NCBI GenBank assembly: GCA_029778105.1
Contig: JAKOQZ010000003.1
Location: 1-42,256, forward strand
Direction: 5' to 3'
Source: Pseudomonadota bacterium
GTDB taxonomy: Bacteria; Pseudomonadota; Alphaproteobacteria; Micropepsales; Micropepsaceae
Length of the DNA stretch: 42,256 nucleotides
The position numbers and the translations under genes are program-made. Positions 21,899-25,988 of the stretch are shown here, piece by piece; positions within the stretch are counted from its first letter, which is position 1, and every line of letters starts with the position of its first letter. The notes beneath the pieces are model-generated. The model was not told the origin of the DNA, searched no databases, and saw only the letters and a program-made list of their open reading frames with translations.

Positions 21899-21927
21899 AA
21901 GGGCGGCCTCTAGCCGCCCTTTTCTTT
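21899..21927 (+). terminator. Intrinsic terminator immediately upstream of the ahcY start
   Basis: AAGGGCGGC-CTCTA-GCCGCCCTT followed by TTCTTT; 9-bp perfect stem. Confidence 0.8.
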
Positions 21928-21940
21928 GCCGCGAGGCCCC

Positions 21941-23359
21941 ATGACCGCCCACGATTATCACGTCGCCGATATCAAACTGGCCGCCTTCGGCCGCAAGGAA
22001 ATCGACCTCGCCGAAGCCGAAATGCCCGGCCTGATGGCGACCCGCGAAGAGTTCGGCCCCAAGCAGCCGCTGAAAGGCGCGCGCATCGCCGGCTCGCTGC
22101 ACATGACGATCCAGACCGCCGTTCTCATCGAGACGCTGAAGGCGCTGGGCGCCGATGTGCGCTGGGTGTCGTGCAACATCTATTCGACCCAGGACCACGC
22201 CGCCGCCGCCATCGCCGCAGGCGGCACCCCGGTCTTCGCCTATAAGGGCGAGAGCCTGGTGGAGTACTGGGACTTCACCGCCAAGCTGTTCGACTGGCAT
22301 GGCGCCAAAGCAGGCGAAAGCCTTATGCCCAACATGATCCTGGACGACGGCGGCGACGCGACGATGCTGGTCCATCTGGGCCTGCGCGCCGAGCAGGGCG
22401 ACACGGCGTTCCTGGAAACCCCGCATTCGGAAGAGGAAGAAATCTTCTTCGCGCTGATCAAGCGGCTGCTGAAGGAGAAGCACGAAGGCTGGTTCGCCCA
22501 GCTCGCCGCCTCGATCCGCGGCGTGTCGGAAGAGACCACCACGGGCGTCAACCGCCTCTATCAGCTGGCGGCGCAGAACAAGCTGCTGTTCCCGGCGATC
22601 AACGTGAACGACAGCGTCACGAAGTCGAAGTTCGACAATCTCTATGGCTGCCGTGAGTCGCTGGTCGACGCCATTCGCCGCGGCACCGACGTGATGCTGT
22701 CGGGCAAGGTCGCGTTCGTCGCCGGCTTCGGCGACGTGGGCAAGGGCTCGGCCGCCTCGCTGCGCCAGGCCGGCTGCCGCGTGATGGTGTCGGAGATCGA
22801 TCCGATCTGCGCCCTGCAGGCGGCGATGGAAGGCTATGAAGTCGTCACCATCGAAGACGCCCTGCCCCGCGCCGACATCTTCGTCACCGCGACCGGCAAC
22901 AAGGACATCATCACGGTCGACCACATGCGCGGCATGAAGGACCGGGCGATCGTCTGCAATATCGGCCACTTCGACAACGAGATCGACGTCGCGGGCCTGA
23001 AGAACTTCAAGTGGAACAACATCAAGCCGCAGGTCGACGAGATCGAGCTGGCGTCGGGACGCCGCATCATCCTGCTGTCGGAAGGCCGCCTGGTGAATCT
23101 GGGCAACGCGATGGGCCATCCCAGCTTCGTCATGTCGGCCTCGTTCACCAACCAGACGATCGCGCAGATCGAGCTGTGGACCAATCCCGGCAAGTACGAG
23201 AAGAAGGTCTACACCCTGCCCAAGCACCTGGACGAGAAGGTGGCGCGCCTGCATCTGGAGAAGATCGGCGTGAAGCTGACCAAGCTGAGCCAGACGCAGG
23301 CCGACTATATCGGCGTGACGGTCGCCGGCCCGTTCAAGGCCGACCACTACCGCTACTGA
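21941..23359 (+). CDS. ahcY: Adenosylhomocysteinase
   Basis: [63 protein letters not shown]-terminal [14 protein letters not shown]-type end ([14 protein letters not shown]). Start ATG at 21941, not the TTG at 21926. Confidence 0.97.
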
Positions 23360-23385
23360 TATCGCCCTCCGGCGAAACGGCGAGG

Positions 23386-23417
23386 CGCCGGCGGCAACGC
23401 CGGCGTCTTTGTTTTCG
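23386..23417 (+). terminator. Intrinsic terminator downstream of ahcY
   Basis: CGCCGGCG-GCAA-CGCCGGCG stem followed by TCTTTGTTTTC. Confidence 0.75.
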
Positions 23418-23421
23418 GTTT

Positions 23422-23502
23422 GGACTCACCGCACGGTGAATCCGTTCCTGTGGACTCTTTAACCGTGAGTCTTGCGCGCCTATCGTGGCCTGGGGACGAT
23501 TC
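23422..23502. promoter_or_regulatory. Cluster of five GANTC (CcrM-type) sites in two tandem inverted repeats upstream of divL-like gene
   Basis: GANTC at 23423 (GACTC), 23438 (GAATC), 23453 (GACTC), 23467 (GAGTC), 23498 (GATTC). Inverted repeat GGACTCACCG-CA-CGGTGAATCC at 23422-23443. Confidence 0.65.
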
Positions 23503-23555
23503 GCGGATCGACTTTTCATAAAATGCGCGCGGATCGACGAGGGTAACGCGGCCTG

Positions 23556-25988
23556 ATGGTCCATCATGCTGAAACGCCGGGTTGGCGGCGGTCGGGAAGC
23601 TTCCTGGCCGCGGCGATGGCCTGTGCGCCCGACGCCCTGGCGCAGGATGCGGCGGCCGCCGGCGAGACGCCGTTCGTCGTGCTTCTGGCCATCACAGGGC
23701 TGGTGGCGCTGGCCATCTGCGGCGTGCTGTTCGCGATCGGCGCGATGCAGCGCGGGCGCACCCGCGAGGCGGCGCTGCTGAGCGAAGTCGCCAAGGCGCG
23801 CCAGCTCGCCGCCGAGCGCAGCGCGCTGCTGCTGGCCAGCGACACGCCGCTTTATCTCTATCCGCCGGGTGCGGCCCGGCCGCGCATTTTCGGCCCCGAC
23901 CAGGGGCGGCTGGAGCGCGTGCTGCGCGGGCCGGACGGGCTGGCGCTGGCCGACGCCATCAAGAAGCTGCGCCAGTCGGGCGAACCGTTCACGATCAGCG
24001 CCCGCGATCCCGAACAGGGCCCGTTGCGGGCGCGGGGCCGCGCAGCGGGGCGCGAAAGCGCGATCTTTCTGGAAGGCAGCTATGCCGGCGATCCGCTGGT
24101 CTCGCCGCCGCCGCCGGACAACGGCATCGCCGACGACACCCGCCTCGCGCAGATGTTCGACGCCGTGCCGACGCCGCTGGCGGCGCGGGGGCGCGACGGC
24201 AAGCTGATCTATGCCAATCCGGCCTATGCCGAGGCGGCCGGCGCGGCGACCCCGGCCGCCGCCGTGGCGGCGCAGGCCAAGCTGTTCTCCGACGAGCCGG
24301 CGCTGGCCGAAGCCGCGTTCTCTGCGGGCAGCCCGGTGACCGAACGCCGCTTCGCCGTCATCGAAGGCCAGCGCAAGGCGCTGGAGGTGACCGCCGCCCC
24401 GGCCGGCGACACGGTGGCGATCACCGTGGTGGACGAAAGCGCGGCGGCCGAGGCGCGCGACCGGCTGCAGCGCCATATCGGCGCCTATGACGAGACGCTG
24501 AACCGGCTGAAGACCGCCGTCGCGGTGTTCGGCCCGGATCAGAAGATCAGCTTCTACAACAAGGCCTATATCGATCTGTGGCGGCTGGACCCGGCCTGGC
24601 TGAAGGACAAGCCGACGGAAGGCGAGATCCTTGAGAAGCTGCGCGAAGGCCGCCGGGTGCCGGAGGAGAAATCCTTCGCCGCGTTCAAGCGCGCGCGGGC
24701 CGAGCTCTATGCCTCGATGACCGCACCGCAGGAAGAAGTGTGGCACCTGCCCGACGGCACGACGCTGCGTATCGCGGGCCAGCCGCACCCCTTCGGCGGG
24801 CTGCTCTACCTCTATGAGGACATGACCGAGCAGCTGAGCCTGGAGCGGCGCTATAACGACCTCTTCAACGTACAGCGCTCCACGCTCGATCACCTGCACG
24901 AGGGCGTCGCGTTCTTCGGCATGGATGGGCGGCTGAAGCTGTGGAATCTGGCGTTCGCCGATCTGTGGGGGCTGGAGCCGCAGCAGCTGGAGGGCGAACC
25001 GCATTTCGAGAAGGTGGCGCTGCTGTGCGCGGCGCTGGGCGGCGACGCCGAAGACTGGGACAAGGTGCGCGGCCAGGTGACCGGGGCGGCCGAGCGGATC
25101 GAGATCGCAGGCGAGATGGAGCGCAGCGACGACATCACGCTGCATTTCGCCGCCGTGCCGATGCCCGACGGCGCGACGCTGATGAGCTTCGTCGACATGA
25201 CGGACTCGCTGAGGGCCGAGCAGAGCCTTCTGGAGAAGAACGAGGCGCTGATGACTGCGGCGCGCCTCAAGACCGACTTCATCAGCCACGTCTCGTATCA
25301 GCTGATCGTGCCGCTGACCTCGATCATGGGCTTCGCCGAAGCGCTGCAGGCCGGCATCGCGGGCGAGCTGAACGAGCGGCAGGGCTATTATCTGGGCAAC
25401 GTGCTGGCGGCCTCGGCCGAACTCAAGACGCAGATCGACAACATGGTGGATCTGGCAGCGCTGGATGCGGGCGAACTGAAGCTGGACCTCAAGCCCATCG
25501 AGCCGGCCGAATTCCTGACGACGCTGAAATCCATGGTGCAGGAACGCTGCAACAAGGAAGGGCTGGAGCTGGTGATGGAGGCGCCCGAGGGCCTGGGGCC
25601 GCTCAACGCCGATCCGGCGCGGCTGAAGCAGGTGATGTTCAACCTGCTGACCAACGCGATCAGCTATACGCCTTCGGGCGGCACAATCGAATTCGGCGCG
25701 GCGGCGGAAGGCGCGGGCCTGCGCTTCTGGGTGCGCGACACCGGCCCGGGCTTCGAGCCGGAGCAGCAGGCGCTGGCCTTCGAGCGCTTCGAGAGCAGCC
25801 GGGTCGGCGATGCGCCGCGCGGCACGGGCCTTGGCCTGGCACTGGTGCGCTCGATCGTCGAGCTGCATGGCGGCTGGGTGTCGCTGCGCTCCAAGAAGGG
25901 CGAGGGCACGGAAGTCACGTGCCATCTGCCGCGCTCGGGGGAGTCGCCGGCCCTTCCGGGCTTTGAGGGGATCGACCAGCCGTTCTGA
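23556..25988 (+). CDS. divL: PAS-domain sensor kinase, DivL-like, with Tyr at phosphoacceptor position
   Basis: N-terminal TM, PAS regions, DHp motif KTDFISHVSYQLIVPLTSIMGFAEAL, N-box MFNLLTNAISYTPSGG, VRDTGPGF, GTGLGLALVRSIVELHGG. Confidence 0.75.
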   Translation: MVHHAETPGWRRSGSFLAAAMACAPDALAQDAAAAGETPFVVLLAITGLVALAICGVLFAIGAMQRGRTREAALLSEVAKARQLAAERSALLLASDTPLYLYPPGAARPRIFGPDQGRLERVLRGPDGLALADAIKKLRQSGEPFTISARDPEQGPLRARGRAAGRESAIFLEGSYAGDPLVSPPPPDNGIADDTRLAQMFDAVPTPLAARGRDGKLIYANPAYAEAAGAATPAAAVAAQAKLFSDEPALAEAAFSAGSPVTERRFAVIEGQRKALEVTAAPAGDTVAITVVDESAAAEARDRLQRHIGAYDETLNRLKTAVAVFGPDQKISFYNKAYIDLWRLDPAWLKDKPTEGEILEKLREGRRVPEEKSFAAFKRARAELYASMTAPQEEVWHLPDGTTLRIAGQPHPFGGLLYLYEDMTEQLSLERRYNDLFNVQRSTLDHLHEGVAFFGMDGRLKLWNLAFADLWGLEPQQLEGEPHFEKVALLCAALGGDAEDWDKVRGQVTGAAERIEIAGEMERSDDITLHFAAVPMPDGATLMSFVDMTDSLRAEQSLLEKNEALMTAARLKTDFISHVSYQLIVPLTSIMGFAEALQAGIAGELNERQGYYLGNVLAASAELKTQIDNMVDLAALDAGELKLDLKPIEPAEFLTTLKSMVQERCNKEGLELVMEAPEGLGPLNADPARLKQVMFNLLTNAISYTPSGGTIEFGAAAEGAGLRFWVRDTGPGFEPEQQALAFERFESSRVGDAPRGTGLGLALVRSIVELHGGWVSLRSKKGEGTEVTCHLPRSGESPALPGFEGIDQPF

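Follow-up and report, generated by a model that had tools for sequence, protein, structure and literature searches.

Conserved GANTC sites in a probable GcrA/CcrM-class promoter of divL in an alphaproteobacterial genus

GANTC sites between ahcY and divL

Five GANTC sequences are crowded into a single intergenic gap upstream of a cell-cycle kinase gene, and the question raised by this locus is which of them matter and how they may act. The gap (196 bp) separates the ahcY ORF (21926–23359) from divL in the window, that is, the whole stretch of 42,256 nucleotides that was analysed. The sites are GACTC at 23423–23427 (site 1), GAATC at 23438–23442 (site 2), GACTC at 23453–23457 (site 3), GAGTC at 23467–23471 (site 4), and GATTC at 23498–23502 (site 5), and their start-to-start spacings are 15, 15, 14, and 31 bp, exactly as an earlier note on this DNA had described. 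The window contains 43 GANTC sequences (1.02 per kb), and nowhere else in it do three or more fall within 100 bp. The statement in the note that the other intergenic gaps hold one site or none is also correct, since only the ahcY–divL gap exceeds one GANTC among the 14 gaps called.

At the mean density of the window, the probability of four further sites within 75 bp is approximately 1.3e-6 per site, and it is still 9e-5 when 3 GANTC per kb are assumed. In Markov shuffles of the gap itself, at least five sites appeared in 61 of 20,000 trials. We used 1.2 Mb of a complete genome of the same genus (G003) as the background for gap counts, in which one of 452 intergenic gaps delimited by a crude gene caller holds five sites. 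The density in the same 1.2 Mb, with the same crude caller, is 2.1 per kb in intergenic and 1.2 per kb in coding DNA, and GANTC is over-represented in general in the intergenic DNA of alphaproteobacteria (PMC3973325).

Conservation of the sites within the genus

The ahcY–divL gaps of the genome containing the window (G000) and of G001, G002, G003, and G004 were aligned, a comparison that the earlier note had proposed. The spacing is kept for sites 3–5 and not for sites 1 and 2. Sites 3 and 5 are invariant in all five genomes, and site 4 is present in four of them, G001 being the one that lacks it. Where sites 3–5 are kept, the spacings of 14 and 31 bp (offsets of 0, +14, and +45) are exact to the base. 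Sites 1 and 2 are common only to G000 and its closest relative, G002, in which their spacing differs. Invariant columns account for 39 of 58 positions across 23450–23507 versus 0 of 63 across 23360–23422, and the invariant or near-invariant blocks in the genus are GGACTCTT, GCGCGCnTATCGTG, and GGGGACGATTCGCG. The pattern GANTC-N9-GANTC-N26-GANTC is found in five of 41 family genomes, always at divL in the four that belong to the genus and at an unrelated place in the other one.

The inverted repeats should be noted here, since the earlier note regarded a double palindrome and a near-15-bp phase as a functional order. The 22-bp inverted repeat is present at 23422–23443 in an imperfect form, with site 1 in the left arm and site 2 in the right arm, and GACTC-N9-GAGTC, formed by sites 3 and 4, is present as the single occurrence in the G000 genome. 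The functional order attributed to them did not hold up: the 15/15 steps are not kept, the conserved spacing being 14/31. The window contains 41 inverted repeats comparable to 23422–23443 (arms of 10 or more, no more than one mismatch, and a loop of up to 10), and repeats of this quality arise in 9% of the shuffles of the gap. In G002, 8 bp between sites 1 and 2 are absent and the long palindrome is gone. GANTC is itself palindromic, so that any two GANTC sites automatically make an inverted repeat, GACTC-N9-GAGTC included. Being not conserved, common by chance, and automatic for GANTC, the double palindrome with its near-15-bp phase is not the functional core of the locus, and we rejected an ordered operator of this type in view of the comparable repeats in the window and the unconserved phase. 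Sites 1 and 2 are regarded as a recent and dispensable addition in the best explanation of the locus, which we consider probable as a whole.

The divL gene and its probable promoter

The gene downstream of the sites is, judged from its protein sequence, a true divL. It occupies 23556–25988 on the forward strand and encodes 810 amino acids with PAS domains, HisKA, and HATPase. The hallmark of the pseudokinase DivL, a tyrosine replacing the HisKA histidine at the phospho-acceptor position, is found in the window protein (HVSYQL), and the best match among solved structures is 4q20, Sensor protein DivL (E=4e-46). The tyrosine is present in 12 of 14 aligned divL homologues. The two exceptions, L007 (G006) and L022 (G020), have AQISDKL and QHASFLF, respectively, instead of HVSYQL, the tyrosine hallmark having been lost in some family members.

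A hairpin resembling an intrinsic terminator (23382–23409, forward strand), with 12 pairs followed by TGTTTT, lies behind ahcY, so that divL is probably transcribed from a promoter of its own within the 146 bp that remain (23410–23555). A pattern scan found no consensus sigma-70 promoter, and an Rfam search of the window for a known RNA element gave no match. Based on conservation, TATCGT at 23481–23486 (forward strand) is the putative −10 element. It is invariant, with sites 3–5 flanking it, lies inside the near-invariant block GCGCGCnTATCGTG, and takes the form TATC[AGT]T family-wide. Transcription would then start near 23493. The candidate −35 element, TTTAAC at 23458–23463 (forward strand) with a 17-bp spacer (or TTAACC with a 16-bp spacer), is weak and is not conserved, the relatives having TTTCGC or TTCCGC.

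Sites 3, 4, and 5 begin at −28, −14, and +17, respectively, relative to the start of the −10 element. Relative to the putative transcription start, site 3 would lie at about −40 to −36, site 4 between the −35 and −10 elements at about −26 to −22, and site 5 at about +6 to +10. The proposed GcrA-activating motif is YGAKTCK (PMC7987155). Both site 4 (TGAGTCT) and site 5 (CGATTCG) match this motif within about 40 bp of the putative start, while sites 1, 2, and 3 do not, suggesting a promoter of the GcrA/CcrM class in which sites 4 and 5 do the work. We consider that 23410–23555 is probably a divL promoter of this class.

The element TTAACC at 23459–23464, between sites 3 and 4, had been likened to a CtrA half-site. 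The element is present, but its reading as a CtrA element is not borne out, since it lies at −22 from the −10 element in G000 and G002, at −45 in G003 and G001, and is lacking in G004. Because the position is common only to G000 and G002, and the family box lies elsewhere, this TTAACC is not the inherited CtrA element, and it was rejected as such on its lack of positional conservation in the genus. G000 has no full TTAA-N7-TTAA(C) box near −35. The locus thus resembles CtrA-controlled promoters (TTAA-N7-TTAA) in that many family members have full boxes upstream of divL, and differs from them in having only a half-site in G000, at a position not common to G003, G004, and G001.

Arrangement in the family

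We compared 30 divL upstream regions from the family, including that of the genome containing the window. TAT[CT]nT followed after 10–16 bp by YGAKTCK is found in 22 of the 30 (a count uncorrected for relatedness), and the YGAKTCK site in these regions lies just downstream of the −10 element, 17–22 bp from its start. The number expected from shuffling is 0.04, and the same arrangement occurs in one of 23 trxB-upstream controls. It is absent in eight of the 30 divL promoters. Many family promoters have a common TATCATnTTGATTCnACAGTGATTCG, with GATTC at +9 and +20 from the start of the −10 element, and many have a fixed TTGATTCnACAGTGATTCG and a CtrA box, the full box TTTA-N7-TTAACC lying about 37–48 bp upstream of the −10 element. 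Whereas most of the family has the CtrA box and the sites at +9/+20, the genus of the window has the fixed layout −28/−14/+17 and has lost the full box.

These observations bear on the possibility that the sites have no regulatory role and accumulated, by chance or mutation, in a gap on which no coding constraint acts. The higher density of GANTC between genes and the lack of conservation of sites 1 and 2 agree with such an origin, and these two sites may indeed have arisen by chance. However, the exact spacing is kept across species while the flanks diverge, and the family arrangement exceeds the shuffled expectation by far. The conservation of sites 3–5 contradicts a chance origin for these three, and we regard this explanation as very improbable.

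CcrM, GcrA, and CtrA in the same genome

A search of the G000 genome, also proposed in the earlier note, shows that all three of CcrM, GcrA, and CtrA are encoded. CcrM (G000:C217, with a RAMA match) gives 552 bits to the solved CcrM 6pbd and 624.7 bits against NF050803, the latter below the model cut-off of 830. The absence of ccrM, which the note had named as a ground for giving up its reading, is thus ruled out, and every family genome tested has CcrM. GcrA (G000:C189:26288-26713) matches both solved domains, the DNA-binding domain (5yiu/5z7i), with approximately 78% identity, and the sigma-binding domain (5yix). CtrA (G000:C55:27887-28576) is 83% identical, over nearly the whole length, to the query sequence, whose sole purpose was to locate it. 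Upstream of ctrA (L143), G000 has GANTC sites at −133 and −178, of which the one at −133 recurs in G003 and is absent in G002. Unlike its upstream regulators, ctrA has no GANTC cluster.

The presence of CcrM in every family genome tested also bears on the possibility that another regulator or a sigma factor recognises the conserved letters simply as sequence, GANTC being incidental and methylation playing no part. The conserved bases do extend beyond GANTC (GGACTCTT, GCGCGC, and GGGGACGATTCGCG), and the CtrA box and the fixed TTGATTCnACAGTGATTCG recur in many family promoters, in agreement with such a reading. Contrarily, the sites of the genus have moved relative to the family layout and have stayed GANTC even though the central base and the flanks changed. 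We consider a reading of plain sequence improbable.

Proposed mechanism

CcrM methylates GANTC, and GcrA, which binds the sigma-2 domain as well as methylated GANTC, speeds open-complex formation (PMC7987155, PMC3667746, PMC4287350, PMC7403470). In C. crescentus and B. subvibrioides, divL is a member of the GcrA regulon, and the same is predicted for most of 23 Caulobacterales (PMC7987155). GcrA of B. subvibrioides showed no preference for the extended motif (PMC7987155). By analogy, CcrM would methylate the GANTC sites of the divL promoter late in the cell cycle, and GcrA, carried on RNA polymerase with the housekeeping sigma factor, would recognise the methylated sites and aid promoter opening. 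Passage of the replication fork would leave the sites hemimethylated, so that divL transcription would be tied to replication. The working sites would be 23467, between the −35 and −10 elements, and 23498, shortly downstream of the start, with 23453 as a probable third. For this promoter, we infer where transcription starts, that the sites are methylated in vivo and bound by GcrA, and in which direction and when this acts. The earlier reading of the locus as a methylation-gated promoter of a cell-cycle kinase is therefore retained in so far as CcrM, GcrA, and CtrA are encoded and the sites are conserved around the −10 element, without the order ascribed to phase and palindromes.

The positions of the conserved sites also allow a different role for methylation. 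In Caulobacter, GANTC between the −35 and −10 elements marks promoters activated at 40–60 min, in S phase, whereas starts with GANTC outside this interval are at their lowest at 40–60 min (PMC4287350). The fully conserved sites 3 and 5 both lie outside the interval. Methylation might thus matter other than through activation by GcrA: 23453 and 23498 would repress when fully methylated, the methylated sites hindering RNA polymerase or another factor, and the promoter would fire only after the fork has passed. However, sites 4 and 5 match the GcrA activation motif, and the GcrA regulons of two related genera include divL, GcrA being mainly an activator (PMC7987155). We consider repression of this kind unlikely, though slightly less so than a reading of plain sequence, and activation by GcrA remains the preferred explanation.

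Comparison with known promoters

The GcrA/CcrM promoters of Caulobacter crescentus (ctrA P1, mipZ, podJ, pleC, and mopJ) resemble the present locus in having GANTC in or near the core promoter, CcrM and GcrA encoded, an S-phase cell-cycle gene, and YGAKTCK, which here occurs in two sites. They usually have one or two sites, whereas divL here has three to five within 80 bp, the comparison being one of genes and sites only. The likeness to the divL promoters of Caulobacterales (PMC7987155) consists in the same gene and the same predicted regulator. The GcrA regulon is already known to include divL in Caulobacter and Brevundimonas, so the promoter described here is a well-conserved addition to a known class. 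Judged by its positional conservation, control of divL by GcrA and CcrM, which to date has been shown in two Caulobacterales, would extend to further alphaproteobacterial genomes, and the analysis picks out which sites of the divL promoter to mutate.

Other GANTC clusters in the genome

GANTC triplets with gaps of 30 bp or less number 49 in G000 versus 5 for the reversed control CTNAG, a ratio that is only indicative because CTNAG is itself under-represented in alphaproteobacterial genomes (PMC3973325). Directly upstream of ccrM, 13 GANTC sites lie in 290 bp (L120:2428-2717, G000:C217), and the proximal group keeps its spacing in G003 (L186) and G004. Clusters are also found immediately upstream of cckA (five sites, L123:2842-2906), a PleC/DivJ-like histidine kinase gene (seven sites, L121:2784-2901), and mopJ (three sites, L126:1233-1281). 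The names CckA, CcrM, and MopJ come from NCBIfam profiles, whose strict cut-offs the scores did not reach. Three sites lie approximately 155 bp upstream of gcrA (L137:2116-2134), and six lie between rpsT and a rhodanese-like ORF, both named from their translations, with dnaA following (L119:2798-2887). A group of 10 sites lies beside trxB, and there are further clusters in front of a KamA-like gene, at a likely tRNA, and close to some metabolic genes. The divL cluster is thus not uniquely dense, as the clusters before ccrM and beside trxB exceed it. The earlier note had held that similar clusters at random loci would count against its reading; such clusters do exist elsewhere, but they lie largely at cell-cycle genes. 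In the set of clusters described here, dense GANTC is strongly, though not exclusively, associated with cell-cycle genes.

A broader scheme may be suggested very tentatively, and we think it rather doubtful: throughout the genus, the methylation state at nearly every core cell-cycle gene, namely, divL, cckA, ccrM, gcrA, mopJ, the PleC/DivJ-like kinase gene, and the dnaA locus, would be read through arrays of several GANTC sites at fixed spacing instead of through single sites. If so, the number and spacing of sites could give a sharper response to replication than single-site promoters allow, and the array with a 21-bp phase beside trxB would belong to the scheme without being a promoter. The dense clusters at most core cell-cycle genes offer a natural test of whether several sites per promoter act jointly or redundantly.

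The array beside trxB consists of 8–10 GANTC sites, partly in 21-bp steps, between convergent HAD-hydrolase and trxB genes (L118:3467-3676, corresponding to G000:C6:12466-12675; L179:3000-3207 in G003; L193:3056-3212 in G004; L197 in G002). It adjoins no gene start, has no Rfam match, and does not accompany trxB in other genera. The spacing of 5, 34, 21, 21, ~20, ~40, 9, and 30 is nearly exact in G000, G003, and G004 and is partly kept in G002, although the DNA between the sites has diverged. This array is possibly more novel than the divL promoter.
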